Positions 1,133 to 40,548 of a stretch of 40,548 nucleotides of DNA are shown in pieces. Every line of letters begins with the position of its first letter. Within the stretch, counting starts at the first letter, position 1. The notes under the pieces were generated by a model. That model had not been told where the DNA came from and ran no database searches. It worked only from the letters and a program-made list of their open reading frames with translations. The translations under genes were made by a program, and so were the position numbers. Source of the stretch: a virus; the IMG/VR virus record IMGVR_UViG_3300028790_000001, positions 1 through 40,548 of that record, one strand, 5' to 3'.

Positions 1133-1139
1133 CGGGCCG

Positions 1140-1211
1140 ACGTGGCCACGTCGGGACATGGGCACGTCGCCACGTGGCCACATGGGGACGTGACGACATG
1201 GTGACATTCCC
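1140..1211. repeat. 8-bp palindromic repeat array A (9 units)
   Basis: Nine consecutive 8-bp units whose ACGT or ACAT cores start at 1140, 1148, 1156 and so on to 1204 without a phase break. The four bases between cores are nearly all G or C. A unit such as ACGTGGCC is its own reverse complement when rotated. The array is intergenic, 22 bases upstream of the 32-aa gene that begins the terminase transcript. Confidence 0.9.
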
Positions 1212-2138: not shown

Positions 2139-2458
2139 CGGTGGGCCTCCTCGACGACGTCGGGACGTGGCGACGTGGGGACATCGGCACGTGGGGACGT
2201 GGGGACGTGGTGGCCGTAGCGTTGCCGGGCGGCCTCGCCGGAGGTGCCGAGCATGGCGCCGATGGCACCCCAGGGCAGGCCGGCGGCCCGCACGGTGCGG
2301 ATGGCGTCGAGCACGGCCCGCTCGGCAGTAGCCCGGTCGATGAGGGCGGAGCGCAGGGCGGAGGCGTCGACGAAGTTGAGCGTCGCCGGGTCGAGGGCCT
2401 CGAAGCGGTCGGCGAGCTCGTCGGCGTGGCGGAGGACTTCCTCCAGGGTTCGGGGCAT
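2135..2458 (-). CDS. Antitoxin-like helix-turn-helix protein
   Basis: 107-aa partner of the gene at 2464-2697. Residues 1-85 form an all-helical protein ending in a sigma-factor-like HTH (AGLPWGAIGAMLGTSGEAAR, then QRYG), a motif I know from actinobacterial antitoxin-type proteins. The ATG at 2458 has a GAGGTG ribosome site six bases upstream and lies five bases after the toxin stop. The last 20 or so residues (HHVPTSPRADVPTSPRPDV) are encoded by array B, so the repeat has become a translated tail. Expected to bind the toxin and autoregulate. Assignment rests on sequence pattern and gene pairing. Confidence 0.6.
   Translation of the reverse strand: MPRTLEEVLRHADELADRFEALDPATLNFVDASALRSALIDRATAERAVLDAIRTVRAAGLPWGAIGAMLGTSGEAARQRYGHHVPTSPRADVPTSPRPDVVEEAHR
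2157..2212. repeat. 8-bp palindromic repeat array B (7 units)
   Basis: Cores at 2157, 2165, 2173, 2181 (ACAT), 2189, 2197 and 2205 with an unbroken 8-base step. The array is translated as the C-terminus of the antitoxin-like gene and ends 19 bases upstream of the GTG at 2138. Confidence 0.9.
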
Positions 2459-2749: not shown

Positions 2750-3073
2750 TCACCACTGGACGACGACGCTGAATCCCGGGGTGAGCGGCACCTGCACGCT
2801 GCGCTGGCCGGCGAGGACGGCCTCGCGCACGGCCTCGCCGATCAGGCGCCGGGAGTTGCGCCGCTCCCAACTGTCGAGGGCCCGGGTGACGACGGCCAGC
2901 GCCTCGCCCACCGCCAGGTCCCGCTCCGTGTAGATCCGGTGGTTGCCGGAGCCGACCTTCGCCGCCTGGTCCGGGAGGAGACCGTCCTGGCACCACTTGT
3001 AGACGGTCGGCCCGGTTACGCCGGCCAGTTCGGCGAGGCGCCCGTGGGGCTGGCGGCGGTCGCCTTTGCTCAC
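2750..3073 (-). CDS. MerR-like DNA-binding regulator
   Basis: 107 aa. Residues 12-50 form a winged helix of the MerR/excisionase type (GRLAELAGVTGPTVYKWCQD, GLLP, then NHRIYTERDLAV). The rest is a short helix and a C-terminal strand-rich end, too short for an effector domain. Candidate regulator of the accessory region. The GTG start at 3073 lies at the downstream edge of array C, so the array covers the expected promoter/ribosome-binding region. It is a plausible binder of the arrays, without direct evidence. Confidence 0.65.
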   Translation of the reverse strand: MSKGDRRQPHGRLAELAGVTGPTVYKWCQDGLLPDQAAKVGSGNHRIYTERDLAVGEALAVVTRALDSWERRNSRRLIGEAVREAVLAGQRSVQVPLTPGFSVVVQW

Positions 3074-3135
3074 GTCGCCATGTCCCGACGTGGCCACGTG
3101 AGGACGTGAGGACGTGGCGACGTGCTCATGTCGGG
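3072..3135. repeat. 8-bp palindromic repeat array C (8 units)
   Basis: Cores at 3072, 3080 (ATGT), 3088, 3096, 3104, 3112, 3120 and 3128 (ATGT), step exactly eight. The stop of the upstream gene (3126-3128) and the GTG start of the MerR-like gene (3073) are both built from array bases. Confidence 0.9.
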
Positions 3136-3602: not shown

Positions 3603-3841
3603 CTCCCCACGTCCCCACGTGCCGACGTGGCCTCGCCGGCGGCCGGCGGATCCTCGAGCGGAGTCAGATCCCATCGGGTCACGCCGGCGGCCTCCCGGCT
3701 CTCGTAGACCATGGCGAACCGCTCGCCGTAGATGGCCCGGGCCCGGGCCGTGGCTTCGACCTCGGAGTCGGCCTCGACGACGGCGTAGCGATAGCGGCGG
3801 TCCTCGTCGCCGAAGCCGAAGGTGACGATGAACTCGGTCAC
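3599..3841 (-). CDS. Small protein with repeat-encoded tail, 80 aa
   Basis: Starts at a GTG overlapping the previous stop. Compact strand-helix pattern (EFIVTFGFGDEDRRYRYAVV, then EATARARAIYGERF), reminiscent of small ferredoxin-like phage proteins, but this is only a fold impression. The last residues (EATSARGDVGR) are translated from array D. Function unknown. Confidence 0.65.
   Translation of the reverse strand: MTEFIVTFGFGDEDRRYRYAVVEADSEVEATARARAIYGERFAMVYESREAAGVTRWDLTPLEDPPAAGEATSARGDVGR
3601..3632. repeat. 8-bp palindromic repeat array D (3-4 units)
   Basis: Cores at 3609, 3617 and 3625, with a degenerate unit (ACCT) at 3601 in the same phase. It is the shortest array. It encodes the C-terminus of the 80-aa gene and overlaps the GTG start at 3602. 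Confidence 0.8.
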
Positions 3842-4425
3842 GACGTCCCCACGTCGGCACGTGCCGACGTCGCCACATCGGCACGTCCCGATGGCCCGCC
3901 GAGCCAGCCGATACCGATGCCGTCGCTCGCCTCCGCCGGCCGCTCCACCGGCGCCGGCGGGGCCTCGACCAGATGCGCCCGGGCCAGATGCCAGGCCTTG
4001 GCCCGCACCCAGCCGGCCGCCGTCAGGGCGTCGCGCAGGTCATGGCCCTCCTCGGTCCGGTACCAGACGTCGACCACGGTGCGCCGCTCCGCCCACCCGT
4101 TCAGCGGATCCACCACGAACGGGCGCAGCAGCACGGTGACCGAACCGTCGAGCTCGAGGCGCACCTCGTCCGCCCGGCCGTAGCGCTCGGCGGTCACCGC
4201 CACCCGCTCGCCGGGCACCGGGTTCGGGGTGCCCGGCCGCCACCGCCGACACCACGGCTCACCCGGCCCGGTGTCGATTTCGTCCCGCACCCGCACGTAG
4301 ACCCAGACCTCGCCGCCCGGGCGCGGCGGCAACGGTGGAGGAGGCGGCGGAGGCGGAGGATGCGGGGTCGGGGGAACCGGAGGCAGGGGGTGTGACGGGA
4401 GGTCGATGCCCATGGCCGCCATCAT
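3838..4425 (-). CDS. Proline-rich protein with repeat-encoded tail, 195 aa
   Basis: After a short start, residues 7-33 are almost pure proline (including nine prolines in a row). A globular part follows with beta-like segments (EVWVYVRVRDEID, VRLELDGSVTVLLRPFVV) and a tryptophan-containing helix (AAGWVRAKAWHLARAHLV). The C-terminal ADVATSARADVGTS comes from array E. Start uncertain: ATG at 4425, 4422 or 4413, or GTG at 4437 inside array F; none has a clear ribosome site. No recognised family. Confidence 0.65.
   Translation of the reverse strand: MMAAMGIDLPSHPLPPVPPTPHPPPPPPPPPLPPRPGGEVWVYVRVRDEIDTGPGEPWCRRWRPGTPNPVPGERVAVTAERYGRADEVRLELDGSVTVLLRPFVVDPLNGWAERRTVVDVWYRTEEGHDLRDALTAAGWVRAKAWHLARAHLVEAPPAPVERPAEASDGIGIGWLGGPSGRADVATSARADVGTS
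3843..3890. repeat. 8-bp palindromic repeat array E (6 units)
   Basis: Cores at 3843, 3851, 3859, 3867, 3875 (ACAT) and 3883, with a decayed unit at 3891. Translated as the tail of the proline-rich protein and ending two bases upstream of the GTG at 3841. Confidence 0.9.
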
Positions 4426-4435
4426 CGCGGCGCCC

Positions 4436-4491
4436 ACGTCGCCACGTGGTGATGTCCCGACGTGCTCACGTCCCGACGTGGCGACGTCATG
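4436..4491. repeat. 8-bp palindromic repeat array F (7 units)
   Basis: Cores at 4436, 4444, 4452 (ATGT), 4460, 4468, 4476 and 4484. It is intergenic except for the stop of the zinc-ribbon gene at its upstream edge, and ends 11-23 bases upstream of the candidate starts of the proline-rich gene. Confidence 0.9.
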
Positions 4492-4799: not shown

Positions 4800-5168
4800 T
4801 CAGCCACCCGGCCCGGGCCGGCGGCCGGCGACCTCGATGAAGCACCGGCCCGGCACCTCATCCGCCATGAGCGTGAACCCGCCGGCCAGATCCAACGGCA
4901 CCAACGCCGTCGCCACCCAGCGGTCGATGCCGTCACGCTGGCCCCGGTAGGCGAGCTCGACCGGATGCACCACGCCCAGGCCGTCCACGAGACGCACATT
5001 GCGCGGCGCCGGCGGGAGGTCCGCCAATGTCGCCATGTCCCCACGTCCCGACATGCCCACGTGCCGACGTCGCCACCCCACGATGCCCACTCCGATCGCC
5101 AGGACCAGCACCAGCTCCGCGACGAACGGCGCCACCTGCCACGCCAGCACCTCGCTACCGTCCACCAT
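4800..5168 (-). CDS. Membrane-anchored small protein interrupted by repeat array G
   Basis: From the ATG at 5168 the frame codes a transmembrane helix (WQVAPFVAELVLVLAIGVGI), basic residues, then a stretch translated from array G (RRRHVGMSGRGDM), then a globular domain (RLVDGLGVVHPVELAYRG, DRWVATALVPLDLAGGFTLM). It may instead be two genes: a short membrane peptide and a protein starting at the ATG at 5036 just downstream of the array, as at the other arrays. Both parts share one frame, so the sequence does not decide. Function unknown. Confidence 0.6.
   Translation of the reverse strand: MVDGSEVLAWQVAPFVAELVLVLAIGVGIVGWRRRHVGMSGRGDMATLADLPPAPRNVRLVDGLGVVHPVELAYRGQRDGIDRWVATALVPLDLAGGFTLMADEVPGRCFIEVAGRRPGPGG
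5027..5074. repeat. 8-bp palindromic repeat array G (6 units)
   Basis: Cores at 5027 (ATGT), 5035 (ATGT), 5043, 5051 (ACAT), 5059 and 5067, then decayed units. It lies inside the open frame 4800-5168 and overlaps the internal ATG at 5036. Confidence 0.85.
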
Positions 5169-5964: not shown

Positions 5965-6342
5965 TCAGTCGGTGCGGCCCGTGCCACCGAAGCCGTGACG
6001 TTCGGCTGTCTTCGCCGAGTGGTGTGCGTGGCAGTAGCCCTTGAGGCGGTGCGGGTCGAGCGGGTCGGGGTCGTGGTCGACGAGCTCGGGTTCGTGGTCG
6101 ACGTCGACGGCGGGTTCGAGGCAGGGCCGGCCGTCGGGTGATCGCCAGGTGCACCAGGGGTTGGCGAGGAGGTGGGCGCGCCGTGTGCGGGCCCAGGCGC
6201 GGGAGGCGTAGAAGCGGTGGCGCCAGTCGCGTTCGGTGTTGCGGGTGGCTTCGGCTTCGGAGGCGTGGTAGGCGCAGCGTCCGCGGTTGGTGGCGGGGTT
6301 GGGGCAGGTGGGTGTGGAGCAGGTGCGGGGGAGCGGGTCCAC
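5965..6342 (-). CDS. HNH endonuclease
   Basis: 125 aa. An N-terminal Cys cluster (CSTPTCPNP..RGRCAYH) acts as a zinc knuckle. The HNH core has the first catalytic His in VDVDHEPEL and the final His/Asn-type element in LKGYCHAHHSAKT. HNH proteins near terminase genes assist cos cleavage and packaging in HK97-like phages; here it is a few kb upstream of terS in the same direction. GTG at 6342 has no Shine-Dalgarno, but TACCCT ends six bases upstream (6349-6354), so it may be leaderless. Confidence 0.8.
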   Translation of the reverse strand: MDPLPRTCSTPTCPNPATNRGRCAYHASEAEATRNTERDWRHRFYASRAWARTRRAHLLANPWCTWRSPDGRPCLEPAVDVDHEPELVDHDPDPLDPHRLKGYCHAHHSAKTAERHGFGGTGRTD

Positions 6343-11031: not shown

Positions 11032-11259
11032 TCATCTCCTCGGCGGGGGGTCGATGCGGAGGCGGACGTCGTCGATGATGCCGTCGGGATCGGTGGCTTC
11101 GAGGGTCACGGCGTAGCCGGCGTCGAGGTAGGCCTTGGACAGGTCGCCGTGACGTTCGGGGGCTTCGGGGAGGTCGGTGAGGTGGACGAGCTCGTCGACC
11201 AGGACGACGCCGTCGTCGAGGAGCACCCGGAACCGCAGGCGGGCGTAGGGGTTGGTCAC
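11032..11259 (-). CDS. Hypothetical protein, 75 aa
   Basis: GTG at 11259 overlaps the previous stop. Beta-rich start (ARLRFRVLLDDGVVLVDELV), central helix (DLSKAYLDAGYAVTLEA) and a basic end. Not recognised. Confidence 0.65.
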   Translation of the reverse strand: MTNPYARLRFRVLLDDGVVLVDELVHLTDLPEAPERHGDLSKAYLDAGYAVTLEATDPDGIIDDVRLRIDPPPRR

Positions 11260-11528
11260 CGCGCCCGGAGCTCGCGGGTGTAGGCGATGGCGGCCTCCTC
11301 GACGGCGACGCGGGCCTCGGGGTGGTCGTGCACGAGGCGCAGGGCGGCGACGACGAGGGCGATGCGGCTGGCGCCGGAGGTGTGCGCCCAGTCGCCGAGG
11401 CGGTCGTAGTCCTCGGCGGGCATCTCGCCGGTGAGTTTCTTGCGGGCCGCCTTGAGGGCGGCGAGGCTGGCGGGGGTGAAGATGGGCCCGTCGTCGAGGA
11501 CGGCGCCGAGGTCGGGCCGGGTGCTCAT
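11256..11528 (-). CDS. Small helical protein downstream of parA (possible ParB partner)
   Basis: 90 aa, ATG overlapping the ParA stop. All-helical (SLAALKAARKKLTGEMPAED, ASRIALVVAALRLVHDHPEA). Small phage and plasmid partition systems place a short DNA-binding protein directly after ParA, and this gene has that position. The sequence does not show a clear ribbon-helix-helix or HTH, so the role is inferred from context only. Confidence 0.5.
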   Translation of the reverse strand: MSTRPDLGAVLDDGPIFTPASLAALKAARKKLTGEMPAEDYDRLGDWAHTSGASRIALVVAALRLVHDHPEARVAVEEAAIAYTRELRAR

Positions 11529-12166
11529 GCGGCCGGGGTGGGGACGAGGAGCCGCTCGAGGATCTCCCGGGCCGCGGGGAGGAACTCGTGGCGGGGCGTG
11601 ACCTCGCCGACGGCGTCCTCGATGCGGGCCCGGGCGGGCACGACGTTGGTGAGCACGGGGAGGCCCCGGTCGACGAACGCCTTGCGGGCGGTGGCGGCGG
11701 TGTGGCGGCGGGCGTCGACGAAGTTGAGGAGCACGCCGTGGTCGAGGTCGCGGCGCATCTTCTCGGCTTCGATGAGCCGGAGGATGGCGGGGAGGCGGTC
11801 GACGTCGAGGGCGGCGGCCCTCGTGGGGATGATGGCGAGGTCGGCGACGGCGAGGGCGGCGACGACGGAGGGGACGACGGTGCCCTCATGGGTGCGGGTC
11901 GAGGGGGTGTCGATGATGACGACGTCGTAGCCCATGGCGAGCGACGGCAGGCGGCGGGGGAGGTCGGGGGTGTAGTGGGTGACGAACGCGACGTTGGGCG
12001 GCCAGGCGTCGCCGGCGACGTGCACCCAGCGGGCCGCGGACCCGCCTTCGGTGTCGATGAGGAGCACGGCGAGTTCGAGCGCGGCGGCGGTGAGGGCGGT
12101 CTGCACGGACGCGGTGGACTTGCCGACCCCTCCCTTCGGGTTCACGAACGTGACGATGGAGGCCAT
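11525..12166 (-). CDS. parA: ParA-family partition ATPase
   Basis: 213 aa. Deviant Walker A KGGVGKST at residues 11-18, motif near DTEGG (38-42), Walker B VVIIDTP at 82-88. The length fits the small ParA class lacking an N-terminal HTH. ParA moves DNA cargo over the nucleoid for segregation, so the phage may persist as a plasmid; some phages instead use ParA-like proteins for other positioning. ATG at 12166 has AGGAAGG upstream. Array H lies 58 bases upstream, where a centromere or operator could be. Confidence 0.85.
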   Translation of the reverse strand: MASIVTFVNPKGGVGKSTASVQTALTAAALELAVLLIDTEGGSAARWVHVAGDAWPPNVAFVTHYTPDLPRRLPSLAMGYDVVIIDTPSTRTHEGTVVPSVVAALAVADLAIIPTRAAALDVDRLPAILRLIEAEKMRRDLDHGVLLNFVDARRHTAATARKAFVDRGLPVLTNVVPARARIEDAVGEVTPRHEFLPAAREILERLLVPTPAA

Positions 12167-12603
12167 GGTGCCGGGTCCCTTCCTGAAGCGGATGCAGGGA
12201 CGCTACAGGCTGGGGGCGTGGGGACGTGGGGATGTCCCGACGTGTCGATGTCCCCAGGTGCCGACGTGGCGACGTCGTCAGGTGCCGACGTGGCGACGTC
12301 GCCGGCGCCGGGCAGAGCCAGCAGGTCCCGGTCGAGCCAGGCCCGACCGAGGGGGGTGGCGCGCAGGGCCCGGGTGTCGGGCCGGCGGCGGGTGCCGGGC
12401 CGGCCGATGCGGTGCAGGGCCCCGTAGGCGACGAGGTCGTAGAGGGTGGCTTCGACGGTGCGCCACGGGGTGCCCCCGGAGCTGAACAGGTCGACGACCT
12501 CGTCCCAGGCGACGCCGGTCGCGCTGGCGTAGACGTAGTCGAGGACGCCGAGGACCAGGGCGGGCGCCCGATAGCCGAGGGGGTCAGAACTCGCCGAGCT
12601 CAT
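12142..12603 (-). CDS. Winged-helix-like protein with repeat-encoded tail
   Basis: 153 aa, ATG at 12603 overlapping the helicase stop region by about 20 bases. Residues 8-85 look like a PadR/wHTH-type fold (VLGVLDYVYASATGVAWDEV, RTVEATLYDLVAYGALHRIG). The C-terminal part (GDVATSAPDDVATSAPGDID and following) is translation of array H. The stop lies 25 bases inside parA. Could be a helicase partner or a regulator of parA. Confidence 0.6.
   Translation of the reverse strand: MSSASSDPLGYRAPALVLGVLDYVYASATGVAWDEVVDLFSSGGTPWRTVEATLYDLVAYGALHRIGRPGTRRRPDTRALRATPLGRAWLDRDLLALPGAGDVATSAPDDVATSAPGDIDTSGHPHVPTPPACSVPASASGRDPAPWPPSSRS
12224..12303. repeat. 8-bp palindromic repeat array H upstream of parA (10 units)
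   Basis: Ten units in phase from 12224 to 12303; eight have ACGT or ATGT cores and two (12256, 12280) have AGGT. A decayed unit lies at 12216. It is the only array outside the 38.6-5.1 kb segment. It is translated in the preceding gene and ends 58 bases upstream of the parA ATG, the usual place of a parS/operator. Confidence 0.9.
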
Positions 12604-14134
12604 CGGACAGCGGCGGCGCGAGGTCCGGGGTGGGGCCCAGATCGGGGACGGCGGGGCCGGTGTAGGGGCGCACGAGGCGCAGGAACGTCGAGCGGCCCTC
12701 GCGGCGGTCGATGACGTGGCCTTCGGCGCGCAGGGCGGCGAGGGCGGCGTCGACGGTGCGGGCCTTGGCGTTGACGAGGTGGCGCAGCGTGGTGGCGGAG
12801 ACGGGGACCTTGGCGTCGGTGAGGACGTCGGAGATGCGGCCCATGACGTAGGTCGGCTTGCGCGGCGCGCTGGCCGGCCCGCCGAGGGCGGGCGGGTCGA
12901 GGCGCATGATGACCCGGGCGCCGTCGCCGTGGGGTTCGAGGAAGCAGGTGGCGGCGTTGGCGCCGACCTCGCCGACACCGCCGGGACGATCCTTCTCGAT
13001 GCGCAGCGAGAACGCACCCGGCCGGGCCCTCGAGAACGGTTCGAGGACGTTGAGGTAGTAGGCGGCGCCGTCGAGCGCGGCGAGCTTGTGGCCCGCACCG
13101 CGCCCGCCGCGCCCGCGTTTCTCGCGGTCCTTGGTGACGTGGTCGAGGAGCAACACGGCGGCGCCGGTGGCGGCGATCGGTTTCGGCACCCGTTCGATCC
13201 AGGCGGCGACCTCGGCGTTGGAGTTCTCATCCGCGCCGTCGCGGGCCAGGGCGACGGCGACGCCGTCGATGACGACGAGGTCGGGGTTGAGGTCCTCGAG
13301 GAGCCGGTCGAGCTCGAGGCGTTCGGGGGCCCCGAAGCGGCCGTCCTGGGAGAGGTAGGCGAAGCGGGCGCCGACGTCGGCCGGATCCGCGCCGAGGGCG
13401 ATGAGCCGGCCGACGATGCCGGGGGCGGAGTCCTCGAGGTCGAGGTAGATGACGGCGCCGCCGAGGCGGAGGATCTCCAGGGCGGCGAGCAGCGCGAGCC
13501 AGGACTTGCCGGAGGAGGGCTCGGCGAACAGGGCGTGCATCTTGCCGGCGTAGAGCAGGGCCCGGCCGTCGGTGCGGGTGAGGAGGGTGGCCTGTTCGGT
13601 GTCGAGGTTCCCGGCGAGGAGCGCAGCGATGTCGGTGACCCGCAGGGACGAGTAGGTGCGTGAGCCGTTGTTGGCGGCGACGTCGGCGACGCGTTGCTGG
13701 GCCCAGATGACGGCCTCGTGCACGTCGGCGGGCATGTCGGCGGCCCGTTCGCGGATGTCCTCGGCCGAATGCAGGAGCCGGCGCAGGGTGGCGTGGTCGT
13801 GCACGATGGTGGCGTAGGAGCCGACGTTCGACGTTCGGGGCGTGTCGGCCTGCAGGTCGATGAGGACTCCGGGCCCGCCGGCGGTGTCGAGGGCGCCGGC
13901 GCGGCGCAGCTCGTCGGCGACGGTGACGGGGTCGACGGCCCGGGCGGATTCGTAGAGGCGGATCATGGCGGCGGCGATGGCGCCGTGGCCGGGCCGGTAG
14001 AAGTCGCCGGGGCGCAGCTGGGTGGCGAGCGTGGCCAGCGCGTCGGGGGAGAGGAGCGCGGCGCCGAGGATGGCGGCCTCGGCGCGGTCGTCATGCGGGG
14101 GCGGCCCGCCCTTGGGTGCCGGGGCGCGGGCCAT
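12584..14134 (-). CDS. Replicative helicase: DnaB N-domain fused to RepA-like ATPase
   Basis: 516 aa. Residues 14-120 match the DnaB N-terminal helical domain (DDRAEAAILGAALLSPDALA, PGDFYRPGHGAIAAAM, VDPVTVADEL). The RecA-fold ATPase has Walker A AEPSSGKS (204-211), Walker B LVVIDGV (286-292) and a LLLDHVTKD motif, like RepA/AAA_25 hexameric helicases more than DnaB. The C-terminal 100 residues contain a winged helix (GRISDVLTDAKVPVSATTLR). It should unwind DNA at the phage fork. No primase gene was recognised in the window, so priming may be by the host. Confidence 0.85.
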   Translation of the reverse strand: MARAPAPKGGPPPHDDRAEAAILGAALLSPDALATLATQLRPGDFYRPGHGAIAAAMIRLYESARAVDPVTVADELRRAGALDTAGGPGVLIDLQADTPRTSNVGSYATIVHDHATLRRLLHSAEDIRERAADMPADVHEAVIWAQQRVADVAANNGSRTYSSLRVTDIAALLAGNLDTEQATLLTRTDGRALLYAGKMHALFAEPSSGKSWLALLAALEILRLGGAVIYLDLEDSAPGIVGRLIALGADPADVGARFAYLSQDGRFGAPERLELDRLLEDLNPDLVVIDGVAVALARDGADENSNAEVAAWIERVPKPIAATGAAVLLLDHVTKDREKRGRGGRGAGHKLAALDGAAYYLNVLEPFSRARPGAFSLRIEKDRPGGVGEVGANAATCFLEPHGDGARVIMRLDPPALGGPASAPRKPTYVMGRISDVLTDAKVPVSATTLRHLVNAKARTVDAALAALRAEGHVIDRREGRSTFLRLVRPYTGPAVPDLGPTPDLAPPLSDELGEF

Positions 14135-14360: not shown

Positions 14361-14902
14361 GCCGTGACCTCCCGGTAGGGCATGACGATGTTGGCGCGGA
14401 TGGCGGCGAACTCGGGCGGGTCCTCGCCGGCCTGGCCCAACACGGCGAGGCCGATGCGGCGCAGCCACCAGGCGTCGGCCTCGTCCGGATTGGTGGGCTG
14501 TCCGCCGTGCGCCCGGGCGGAGGCGACCATGAGGTCCTTGGAGGCGTGGCCGTCGCCGGTGGCGTAAAGGTGCAGGGTCGAGGGGGGGACCTCGAGGAGG
14601 GTGGCGCCGAGGTTGTGGCCGACGAGGCGGGCGATGCAACCGGCTTCGGCGAGGTGCGCGGCGGCGTACCCGCGGGCACCGCCGAGGCTGTAGCCCTCGA
14701 TCACGACGAGGCTGGGCCGGGGGTGGGGGATGCCGAGGGCGGCGGCGAGCGCCAGGCGCAGCCCTTCGAGGCGCTCCGCGCGGACGTTGACGTCGACCCG
14801 GCGGCGGACCTTGGGCGCGGTGATGGTGGTGAGGGTGCCGTCGACGTGGGCGACGCCGGTGGTGGACGTGGCCGGGTCGACGCCGGCGACGGTGAGGGTC
14901 AT
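14351..14902 (-). CDS. RuvC-like Holliday junction resolvase
   Basis: 183 aa RNase H-fold nuclease. Catalytic acidic residues are visible: Asp9 in AGVDPATSTTGVA, Glu69 in LVVIEGYS, and Asp/Glu in NPDEADAWW (140-143). RuvC-type enzymes resolve branched replication and recombination intermediates before packaging. ATG at 14902 overlaps the upstream stop (ATGA). Neighbours (Cas4/RecB-like nuclease, helicase) fit a recombination-dependent replication module. Confidence 0.8.
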   Translation of the reverse strand: MTLTVAGVDPATSTTGVAHVDGTLTTITAPKVRRRVDVNVRAERLEGLRLALAAALGIPHPRPSLVVIEGYSLGGARGYAAAHLAEAGCIARLVGHNLGATLLEVPPSTLHLYATGDGHASKDLMVASARAHGGQPTNPDEADAWWLRRIGLAVLGQAGEDPPEFAAIRANIVMPYREVTACA

Positions 14903-16455
14903 GGGGTCGTCCTCCGGGTGGCGGCGCGGTCCTCGACCCAGGAGCAGGCGAGGCCGACGAGCGAAGCGGACGCGTCGGCGAGGTCCTCGAGGCGGTTGGG
15001 GGCGGCCTCGTCGAGCTCGGCGGCGAGGCGGCGGACCTCGGCGAAGAACTCGAGGACCTTGACGCCGGCCGCCGCCAGGTAGGTGCGCCACTCGCCGGGC
15101 GTCCACTCCCCGGCCCGGGTGACGTCGAGGTCGCCGGCCGGCGGCGGGTCAGGGGCCGCCGGCGGTGGGGGTGTCGTGCGGTGGCCGGGGGTTCTTGACG
15201 GCGCCAATGCCGGGAGGGCATCAACTACCCCGGCCACCGCGGGCAGAACGTAGCCCGGGTCGCCGAGGTCCGCGAGTACGGCGCGGATCTCCGAGGGGCG
15301 CAGGTCCTTGCCGGTGTCGACGGGCCGGCCGACCATGGCGGAGAGCACGGCGAGGCGCTGGTCGCGGTCACCGATGCCCCGGTTCTGAAAGGCGAGAGCG
15401 ACGATCTGGGGGCCGGTGAGCCGGGCGCCGCCGCGGCCCTCCTCGTCGTCTCCGCCGGCCGGCGCGGCGGGGGGGTCGAACGGTTCGGGGGTGGGGGTGT
15501 CGACCTCGTCGGGCACGTCGAGCGCGGCCTCGGGGGCCGGCCCGGGCGGGGGGGCTTCGCCGCCGGCGGACGGATCGGGGGGTGGGCCCTGGGCGGGAGG
15601 CGCGGGGATCGGCCCGGGGAGGGAGGCGCCCTCGACGGCCTCGAGCGGGTCGAGGCGGTTCTCGCCGGGCCCGGGCAGGGTGGTGGGGCCGCCGGCGGTG
15701 AGCGCGGGGCGGGCCTCGACGCCGGCGAGCCGGACGGGGGTGTCGGTGACGGGCGCGCCGAGGGCCTCGAGGACGGCGCCGAGCCGGCCGCGCAGACCGA
15801 GGGCGGGGACGTAGAAGGTGTGGCGGGGCTGGCCGGGCCGGCGGGATCCTTCGCGGTGCACGAGGGACAGGTCGGCGGGGACGATCACGCCCTGGCGGGT
15901 GGCCCACTCGACGATCTCCGCGGACGAGGCGAGTTCGGTGGCGGCGTGGTAGCCGTGGGATTCGAGGCGCCAGGTGCCGACGTCGGCCAGCGCGGGGAGC
16001 ATGACCCGCAGGCGGGTCGTGGCCTTGCACGCCTGGCCCTTGGCGGCGGCCTCCTGGCGGGCGATCGGGTCGGCGGGGCAGGAGCAGGGCCGGTCGACGA
16101 GGGTCTGGCGGTAGCCGTCGCACCGTTTGATGAGGCCGCCGCCCTCCCACAGCTCGTACCACTGGGCGAGGACTTCGGTGCCGGGCGGGACGAGGACCTC
16201 GATGACGTCGGCCTCGATGTAGACCTCCCATTCGCGCGATCCCTCGTTGACCCAGGGCCTCGGTTCGCCGCCCCATTCGTCGGCGGCCTGTTCGATGAGG
16301 TGCTGCCAGACGGAGGTGAGCCGGAACCGGGGGAGCTTGACCGGGCGCATGATGGGCTTGCCGGTCTTCTTCGACACGCGGCCGGTGTCCTCTTTGAACC
16401 CGGTGCGGATCCGGCCGAGCTCACGGAAGCGGTGCTGTATGTCGAGGATGGGCAC
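14899..16455 (-). CDS. phiC31 Gp3-like recombination directionality factor homologue
   Basis: 518 aa. Residues 1-230 have the family pattern: MPILDIQHRFRELGRIRTG, then KLPRFRLTS, a long region around EVLVPPGTEVLAQWYELWEG, RCDGYRQTLVDRPCSCP, TTRLRVMLPALADVGTWRLE and SHGYHAATELA. Residues 240-390 are a proline-rich linker, and the end is helical. In phiC31 Gp3 switches the serine integrase to excision; relatives also occur beside replication genes in phages without integrase, as here. That suggests a second role in DNA replication or recombination, or an integrase partner supplied elsewhere. Confidence 0.75.
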   Translation of the reverse strand: MPILDIQHRFRELGRIRTGFKEDTGRVSKKTGKPIMRPVKLPRFRLTSVWQHLIEQAADEWGGEPRPWVNEGSREWEVYIEADVIEVLVPPGTEVLAQWYELWEGGGLIKRCDGYRQTLVDRPCSCPADPIARQEAAAKGQACKATTRLRVMLPALADVGTWRLESHGYHAATELASSAEIVEWATRQGVIVPADLSLVHREGSRRPGQPRHTFYVPALGLRGRLGAVLEALGAPVTDTPVRLAGVEARPALTAGGPTTLPGPGENRLDPLEAVEGASLPGPIPAPPAQGPPPDPSAGGEAPPPGPAPEAALDVPDEVDTPTPEPFDPPAAPAGGDDEEGRGGARLTGPQIVALAFQNRGIGDRDQRLAVLSAMVGRPVDTGKDLRPSEIRAVLADLGDPGYVLPAVAGVVDALPALAPSRTPGHRTTPPPPAAPDPPPAGDLDVTRAGEWTPGEWRTYLAAAGVKVLEFFAEVRRLAAELDEAAPNRLEDLADASASLVGLACSWVEDRAATRRTTP

Positions 16456-38616: not shown

Positions 38617-38626
38617 GATGGGTCGT

Positions 38627-38739
38627 ACGTCCCGACGTGGCCACATGCCCACGTGCTCATGTCGGGACGTGACCATGTCGGGACGTCCCCACGTGGCCAC
38701 AAGGACATGTCGCCTTGACCGGCACGTGGCCACGTGGGG
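38627..38739. repeat. 8-bp palindromic repeat array I (about 13 units)
   Basis: Largest array. Ten in-phase units start at 38627 and run to 38706 (the last has a decayed core, ACAA), followed by ATGT at 38707, a decayed unit, and two more units at 38724 and 38732 with a one-base phase shift. It lies 11 bases upstream of the membrane-protein ATG, in the gap after terL. Confidence 0.9.
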
Positions 38740-38755: not shown

Positions 38756-38824
38756 GTGTCGAGATCCGGGGGTGTCCTCGGGCCGGCATGTGTGTCGAGA
38801 TCCGGGGGTGTCCTCGGGCCGGCA
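38756..38824. repeat. Tandem 33-bp direct repeat (36-bp period)
   Basis: The 33 bases starting GTGTCGAGATCC and ending GGGCCGGCA occur at 38756-38788 and again at 38792-38824, separated by three bases. Non-coding, between array I and the terL terminator. Could be a duplicated promoter/operator or a packaging-related element. Confidence 0.85.
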
Positions 38825-38828
38825 CGGC

Positions 38829-38865
38829 GGGGTCCCCACGTCGCACGTCCTGACGTGGGGACCCC
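38829..38865. terminator. Terminator hairpin directly after terL
   Basis: Perfect 14-bp inverted repeat GGGGTCCCCACGTC / GACGTGGGGACCCC with a 9-base loop, immediately downstream of the terL stop (38866-38868). Each arm contains an ACGT core like those in the arrays. Confidence 0.8.
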
Positions 38866-40548
38866 CTACGCCGTGGTCAGACCCCTCGTCTCGTACGCCG
38901 AGGAGGTGTCCTCGGCGGTGTCGCGGGCCCAGGCGTCGACGGCCATGGTGAGCGCGACGAACGGGTCGATGCGCCCGGTCGAGTGGTCCCGGTCGGGCTT
39001 CACGTTCCCCGCGGCGTCGCCGACGACGGCCAGGGACTTCACGGCATAGCGGAGAAGCCGGTTGCCGCCGTGGCGGATCCGGCGGGCGAGGACCAGGGCC
39101 TCGACCTCGCGCAGGGCGGGGGACATGGACGCGTAGCCCTGGCCCATCTCGAAGGGGTTGAGGCCACCGTCGCGCAGGTGGCCGAGGATCTGTTTCGATC
39201 CCCACCGGTCGAAGTGGAGGCGGCGGATCTCCAGGCGGTCGGCGAGGCGGTAGGCCTCGGCTTCGATGGCGTCGTAGTCGAGGGCCTTGCCCGGCGTGGT
39301 CAGCAGCTCACCCGAGGCGATGAGCTCGGCGAACAGGGCGCGCTCTCGGGGTGGCCGGTCTTCGAGGGTGTCGGCGGGGATCCAGGCGCGCACGATCGTT
39401 TCGAGGACCTCGACCTCGTACTCGGTGTCGTCAGGGTCGACGTCCCAGCGGGGGATCACGAGGACCAGGGCGGCGAGGTCCCGGGAGGAGGCGAGGTCGA
39501 GGCCGGCGTAGGCGACGGCGCCGGCGAGCTCGGCCTCAGAAGGCGACACGAACGCGCCGGACGCGGCCCAGTCGTCGACGGACAGCCACCTCGACAGGGC
39601 GGATGTGCGGACGTTGAGGTGCAGGCGGCAGAACGAGAAGCGCTTGCGTTCCGAGCGCGCCGCGGCCTTGGCTTCGGCGGTGAGGAAGTCGAGGGCGACG
39701 GTGCGGCCCAGGCCGGGGTTGGCGGCGGCCCAGACCTCTGGGTCGTCCCAGCGGTCGAGGTCGGCTTCGACCGCGGCGTAGATGACGACGTGCCACGACG
39801 AGTCGGCGATCTCCCCGAGGGCGACGGCCTCGGCGAAGTTGTGCAGCTCCGTGTAGGGGGTGCCATCGGCGTCGAGGCCGGCGGTGGTGAGGTACACGGT
39901 GAGGGGCTGGTCCCTCGCCGGCGTCGAGGACGTGAGGGTGTCGATGAGGCGGGGGTCGCGGTGCACGTGAATCTCGTCGATGACCAGGCCCGAGGCGTTG
40001 AGGCCCATCTTCTCCTCGGCCTTCTCGGGGGCACCGGAAACCACCTCGAACCGGGAGAAGGTGCGTTCGTAGACGATGGCCTTGTCGGCCATGAACGCCA
40101 GCCGGTTGCGCAGCGACGGGGAGCGGCGGGCCATGGCCTCGGCGGGACGGAACACTTCCTTGGCCTGGCGCACGGTGGTCGCCGCCGCGTAGACCTCGGC
40201 GCCCGGCTCGAACAGGCGGCCCGTCTGCAGGTTCGAGTCGGCGGCCAGCAGGTACAGGGCGATCGCGGACGCGAGCGTGGACTTCCCGTTCTTGCGGGGG
40301 ACCTCAACCCAGAGGGTCCGGGAGTGGCGGAACCCGTCGGGCCGGCGCCACCCGAACGTGGGGGCCAACGCGTAGAGGACCTGCCACAAATCGGGGACGA
40401 GACGGACGCCGGACCACCGGCCCTTCACGTGGCGCAACCGGCCGGCGAACTCGAGGAACCGGCCGACCTCGGCCGGGGAGAACGTGAGCCCGAGCCGGCG
40501 GCGGGTCTCCCGGTTCGGGGCGGGGGTGGCGAACGTGGGCGGGACGCA
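38866..40548 (-). CDS. terL: Terminase large subunit, main part (cut by the window edge)
   Basis: Continues the N-terminal part at 1-271; the last 127 bases repeat the first 127. Full protein 608 aa. ATPase: Walker A PRKNGKST at about 132-139 and Walker B LVIDE at 236-240, followed by IHVH. Nuclease: first Asp in AGLDLASSRD (about 399) and the late Asp in DPFVALTMAVDAW (about 576-588). This is the Terminase_1/HK97-like type that cuts and pumps phage DNA into proheads. Confidence 0.95.
   Translation of the reverse strand, partial: CVPPTFATPAPNRETRRRLGLTFSPAEVGRFLEFAGRLRHVKGRWSGVRLVPDLWQVLYALAPTFGWRRPDGFRHSRTLWVEVPRKNGKSTLASAIALYLLAADSNLQTGRLFEPGAEVYAAATTVRQAKEVFRPAEAMARRSPSLRNRLAFMADKAIVYERTFSRFEVVSGAPEKAEEKMGLNASGLVIDEIHVHRDPRLIDTLTSSTPARDQPLTVYLTTAGLDADGTPYTELHNFAEAVALGEIADSSWHVVIYAAVEADLDRWDDPEVWAAANPGLGRTVALDFLTAEAKAAARSERKRFSFCRLHLNVRTSALSRWLSVDDWAASGAFVSPSEAELAGAVAYAGLDLASSRDLAALVLVIPRWDVDPDDTEYEVEVLETIVRAWIPADTLEDRPPRERALFAELIASGELLTTPGKALDYDAIEAEAYRLADRLEIRRLHFDRWGSKQILGHLRDGGLNPFEMGQGYASMSPALREVEALVLARRIRHGGNRLLRYAVKSLAVVGDAAGNVKPDRDHSTGRIDPFVALTMAVDAWARDTAEDTSSAYETRGLTTA
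40422..40548. repeat. Right copy of 127-bp exact terminal overlap
   Basis: Identical to bases 1-127; see the left copy. Removing one copy gives a unit genome of 40,421 bp and an intact terL reading frame. Confidence 0.95.

Follow-up and report, generated by a model that had tools for sequence, protein, structure and literature searches.

A tandem array of degenerate 8-bp palindromes upstream of parA in an uncultured siphophage: a candidate parS-like centromere

To our knowledge, few phage centromeres are known outside the mycobacteriophages and the P1 and N15 groups. The met boxes of MetJ, a chromosomal metabolic repressor, are tandem palindromes of 8 bp centred on ACGT, two to five in number and each bound by one dimer; the arrays described here are likened to them by description only. 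In the RedRock-type parABS cassette, each parS site contains an 8-bp motif repeated eight times in direct orientation and is bound by ParB (PMC7157519). The array after parB is variable and is missing in CRB1, Jeeves and Lokk, and phage Miko provides a precedent for dispersed arrays (PMC7157519). RedRock itself encodes a 185-aa ParA and an overlapping 89-aa ribbon-helix-helix (RHH) ParB. Degenerate octamer arrays with a TCGA core occur both directly upstream of its parA and after its parB. At these two places Alma, Benvolio, Gladiator and Luchador have their two strongest period-8 signals, and a weaker one was found upstream of parA in CRB1. Plasmid pSM19035 carries a Firmicutes system, delta-omega, in which an RHH binder has been proven; its six parS sites overlap and regulate promoters, and four or more contiguous repeats are required by the RHH ParB for activation of ParA (PMC9499535).

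The window (the whole stretch of DNA that was analysed, a virus record of 40548 bases) ends in an exact 127-base direct terminal repeat and is therefore probably complete. Its genes lie mostly on the minus strand and include a siphophage set (terminase, portal, capsid, tape measure, tail and endolysin); DnaB, an exonuclease and ParA are encoded in the replication part. Among the window ORFs tested, none was recognised as an integrase or an immunity repressor, a negative result that is limited by many ORFs at 0.8–9 kb without any match. The replication module includes a gene (14899–16455) for a protein bearing a Gp3-like recombination-directionality-factor domain (PF18897, 1.1e-34), and an HNH endonuclease ORF (PHROG 144, E 9.8e-17) was found at 5965–6342 on the minus strand.

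A close relative, IMGVR_UViG_3300042847_000018 (40147 bases; G001 below), is colinear with the window, circularly permuted and roughly 80–90% identical in nucleotide sequence. The 5.8-kb sequence L023 represents a third lineage, ~94% identical to G001; near-identical partners were found both for the window (L094 and L097) and for G001 (L095). When the terminase was searched in 395 genomes each from the class of an Acidimicrobiales and that of a Frankia genome, only terminases near 40% identity were found, and the surroundings of the hits taken for inspection were devoid of such 8-bp arrays. No ParA was found in the 395 genomes of the Frankia class. Isolated phages yielded no relatives of ParA, the wHTH-like domain or the 90-aa protein, and when viral contigs were scanned for remote relatives of the latter two, G001 alone was returned.

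The preliminary description had placed a tandem array at 12142–12303, 58 bases upstream of the parA ATG. Such an array is present and is named array H here, with 11 in-phase 8-bp units (Table 1; limits include flanking bases, cores at 12216–12299). Its start was corrected to 12214: position 12142 falls inside parA, and 12142–12166 is where the upstream ORF and parA overlap. The actual gap between array H and the parA ATG (12166, minus strand) is 47 bp. Each unit has a core AYRT, or one mismatch to it, with G or C on either side; the cores are mostly ACGT or ATGT, with AGGT in two units and GCGT in the first. A higher-order 24-bp (three-unit) period was seen besides the 8-bp period in 12216–12299, as well as in the RedRock parS-L (L118:7838–7897).

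Table 1. Positions of the tandem arrays and of the genes next to array H in the window.
Feature	Position	Strand	Description
Array A	1138–1209		9 units; kept in G001 and L023
Array B	2155–2210		7 units; kept in G001 and L023
Array C	3070–3133		8 units; kept in G001 and L023
Array D	3607–3630		3 perfect units, one ACCT unit ahead; kept in G001
Array E	3841–3888		6 units; 3′ end of minus-strand ORF 3838–4437; kept in G001
Array F	4434–4489		7 units; kept in G001
Array G	5025–5072		6 units; not found in G001
90-aa gene	11256–11528	−	ATG overlaps parA stop; positional equivalent of parB
parA	11525–12166	−	213 aa, deviant Walker ATPase
Array H	12214–12301		11 tandem 8-bp units; candidate parS and parA-operon operator
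153-aa ORF	12142–12603	−	Winged-helix-like domain (12304–12603), then array-encoded tail
DnaB-like helicase	12584–14134	−	Upstream neighbour
Array I	38625–38696		9 units; between terminase large subunit and next minus-strand gene

The gene order at this locus is dnaB, the wHTH-like gene, array H, parA and the 90-aa gene. The 3′ end of the wHTH-like gene runs into the array, which sits within the 3′ end of the 153-aa open frame, downstream of its wHTH-like domain. Fold matches of this ORF were weak and none was significant, with several winged-helix structures among the highest-ranking. The ORF is 82% identical in G001, where the frame stops in the array after a deletion. Array H has seven units in G001; the difference of four units (32 bp) shifts the frame and ends it at the array edge, so that conservation of the protein does not extend to the array-encoded tail.

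The parA product matched PHROG 164 (ParA-like partition protein, 5.9e-26), Pfam CbiA/AAA_31 and, under the family cut-off, NF041546 ParA_partition (2.8e-29). It is 96% identical in G001 and 26% identical to RedRock ParA (E 2e-11), and is a ParA/MinD-type ATPase within the size of about 185–215 aa found in RedRock-type cassettes. The overlapping small gene of these cassettes is also present: the ATG of the 90-aa ORF lies at 11528 and the parA stop at 11525. No Pfam or NCBIfam match and no RHH or other DNA-binding signature was detected in the 90-aa protein. Comparison with RHH ParBs by using hhalign gave 0.1%, not above shuffled columns, for a query profile of two sequences only, and an AlphaFold2 model (pLDDT 59.5, low confidence) gave no fold match. 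A by-eye RHH pattern match (MPAEDYDRLGDWAHTSGASRIALVVAALR) found no support in Pfam, NCBIfam, a PDB sequence search, a fold search or hhalign with shuffled controls, and is therefore no more than a lead.

A phase-locked scan identified nine arrays in the window and none in each of 20 shuffles, and the same scan of 111.5 kb of unrelated actinobacterial phage and prophage-flank DNA gave none. It agrees with the earlier statement that array H is the sole array outside 38.6–5.1 kb. A strict five-unit pattern matched the window ten times, against no match in 100 dinucleotide shuffles; array H is absent from these matches because AGGT units and non-G/C spacers break its ATGT/ACGT runs. All arrays except D, with three or four units, contain at least six. 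The eight arrays other than H lie at or near gene junctions of a mostly leftward-transcribed block, within 38.6–5.1 kb, which is a sixth of the genome. No array was found at 5.1–12.2 kb of the window, hence none after the 90-aa gene. All arrays but G, eight of nine, are found at corresponding places in G001, and the four that fall within the span of L023 are all conserved there; array I has 14 units in each of these two relatives.

Two further repeats were observed near array I. A long inverted repeat, GGGGTCCCCACGTC ... GACGTGGGGACCCC, lies just past the terminase stop at about 38828–38868 and contains ACGT units; it may be a terminator or two array units standing apart from any array. A perfect 36-bp tandem duplication (GTGTCGAGATCCGGGGGTGTCCTCGGGCCGGCATGT) was found between array I and the terminase at 38756–38824, and had no counterpart in the portion of G001 that was aligned.

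The consensus of 153 units from the three phages is NSACGTSN. Column 3 is A in 151 of these units and column 6 is T in all of them; the two columns between are, rare exceptions aside, C/T and G/A. Flanking columns 2 and 7 hold G or C in all but two units and one unit, respectively, and the outer columns 1 and 8 are variable. Spacer tetramers and their reverse complements occur in similar counts, and the arrays thus have no direction. Pyrimidine-purine steps were not observed at any of the 132 unit junctions (expected 12.5). Between the window and G001, differences were found at 12% of sites in the hexamer SACGTS, at 19% in the flanks and at 38% in the spacer centre (hexamer against spacer centre, Fisher p 5e-7, a value that is indicative only because it comes from gapped alignments of six arrays and from related sequences). 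This conservation pattern is suggestive of selection to keep a palindrome, bound by a protein, at each 8-bp step.

Arrays of this composition were sought more widely by exact scans for three or four ACGT cores. In the viral collection, mixed-spacer arrays were found in this phage group only, all other hits being homogeneous or near-homogeneous repeats; in the genome collection, homogeneous or two-spacer repeats only were found. These scans require three or four perfect ACGT cores, and decayed arrays would escape them.

The nearest plasmid relatives of the window ParA are encoded by Corynebacterium plasmids, in which the gene after parA is small and has weak RHH matches. Most of these plasmids carry arrays both upstream and downstream of this gene pair, with the consensus unit TAACGTTA and no pyrimidine-purine step at 70 unit junctions (expected 5.4). 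A matrix trained on four of the plasmids was applied to pCmus45274, which had been held out, and detected four arrays (scores 28–48, shuffled maximum 10.8); no arrays were found by this matrix in pCmaris1. The four degenerate TAACGTTA-type arrays of pCmus45274 (L128, Corynebacterium mustelae; circular, 39.9 kb) lie at 606, 3789, 33974 and 38740, all in gaps between annotated genes. Dispersed arrays are thus not unique to this phage, and pCmus45274 offers a cultured model for dispersed partition arrays.

The window locus shares with the RedRock type a ParA-type ATPase, a small gene over the parA stop and a degenerate palindrome-core 8-bp array directly upstream of parA; by this analogy array H resembles a RedRock-type parS in layout. 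Unlike the arrays of RedRock, Alma, Benvolio and Gladiator, which have a TCGA core, those of the window have an ACGT core; its small protein is not detectably RHH, no array follows the small gene, and nine arrays are present instead of the one to three described for RedRock-type parABS. The TCGA-type phage arrays, in the phasing used, do not follow the junction rule against pyrimidine-purine steps. This rule is shared with the cassettes of pB85766, pA501, pCmarinum2, pCmus45274 and pCE2, which likewise have ACGT-core 8-bp arrays beside parA and elsewhere; the unit flanks are A/T there and G/C here, and two to four arrays were found against nine, the plasmid arrays having been compared by sequence alone. 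Dispersed arrays of short contiguous repeats (7–10 in pSM19035), a small ParB and sites that double as operators are also features of delta-omega (PMC9499535), whose 7-bp non-palindromic WATCACW repeats differ from the 8-bp palindromic ACGT units of the phage.

On these grounds, a parS function of array H is well supported by analogy: its position, 8-bp unit, degeneracy and palindromic core match the experimentally known parS-L sites of parABS mycobacteriophages and the Corynebacterium plasmid arrays. The proposal in the preliminary description, a centromere of a phage-plasmid, is thus supported in part; the 90-aa protein as array binder (no RHH signal) and a plasmid prophage (no host, no lysogen) were not supported here. 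Its suggestion that the eight other arrays are extra parS sites is reasonable, with precedents in the six sites of pSM19035, in Miko and in the four arrays of pCmus45274. Against a parS stand the lack of an array after the 90-aa gene, a place where most cassettes carry one, the lack of a detectable RHH signature in its product and a number of arrays that exceeds the phage precedents in the literature consulted.

The same arrays could instead be operators, through which the wHTH-like protein (12304–12603) or a 90-aa regulator times or silences many gene junctions, in the manner of temperate actinophage repressor sites and with partition not as the main role. Their places at or near junctions of a mostly leftward-transcribed block fit this explanation, as does the wHTH-like gene directly preceding array H, and parS sites that overlap and regulate promoters are known from pSM19035 (PMC9499535). 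The sole array outside 38.6–5.1 kb, however, lies directly upstream of parA, the position of parS-L; the closest-looking known arrays belong to partition cassettes, and the units are palindromic with strand-symmetric spacers and so directionless. We regard a purely regulatory role as less likely than partition. A replication origin beside dnaB, at which the arrays would be iterons for an initiator protein, possibly the wHTH-like protein, would account for array H adjoining both dnaB and the wHTH-like gene. It is very unlikely: iterons usually form one cluster, eight of the nine arrays lie at least 7 kb away around packaging genes and genes without assigned function, and the composition profile has no clear skew switch at array H.

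Neutral expansion of short tandem repeats by slippage in a GC-rich genome would be in keeping with arrays that differ between relatives by whole units (11 against seven in array H) and with the homogeneous ACGT-core octamer microsatellites that occur across bacteria. All 44 bacterial matches, however, are one- or two-spacer repeats, whereas in the arrays here a near-fixed core goes with numerous different spacers; conservation is highest in the core, lower in the flanks and lowest in the spacer centre, and the array positions are kept between phages. An octamer microsatellite was accordingly rejected: near-identical units are absent, and 24 different spacers were counted among 132, against one or two per array in the genome hits. 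Neutrality is thus scarcely probable. If the arrays were transcribed, they might form RNA hairpins that serve as terminators or processing signals, and their folding does surpass that of dinucleotide-shuffled sequences (z from about −1 to about −7). This advantage was lost when cores were kept and spacers permuted (combined z 0.05, 21 arrays), and no Rfam match was obtained; RNA structure is disfavoured by this control and is very improbable.

We consider it reasonably probable, by analogy with the partition cassettes, that array H serves as a parS-like centromere and probably also as operator of the parA operon, with the other arrays as extra parS or repressor sites. A dimeric DNA-binding protein would occupy each 8-bp palindrome and line up cooperatively along array H. 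From its position, the 90-aa product coupled to parA is the likely centromere binder; the wHTH-like protein is a serious competing candidate. The filled array would recruit nucleoid-bound ParA-ATP and stimulate the ParA ATPase, and the action of ParA would move replicated phage genomes apart. Occupancy so close to the parA start would also tune parA expression, and binding of the same protein to the eight other arrays would make them extra parS sites or local repressor sites. Such a system would suit an extrachromosomal, plasmid-like prophage life, for which the lack of a recognised integrase is negative evidence only.

The question raised by these arrays is why a 40-kb genome should contain nine of them. 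A bolder and less probable reading is a distributed centromere: one small partition protein would bind all of the ~66 palindromic 8-bp sites, which make up nine arrays spread across a sixth of the genome and the parA promoter region, and would both segregate a circular prophage and silence the packaging-side genes; partition and lysogenic repression would then be one system. The unit grammar, with its fixed ACGT core, G/C flanks and exclusion of pyrimidine-purine steps between units, is partly common to the Corynebacterium plasmids and may offer a route to spotting such partition sites by sequence alone. If array H is a parS, the 8-bp-array type of centromere would extend to an uncultured phage group.
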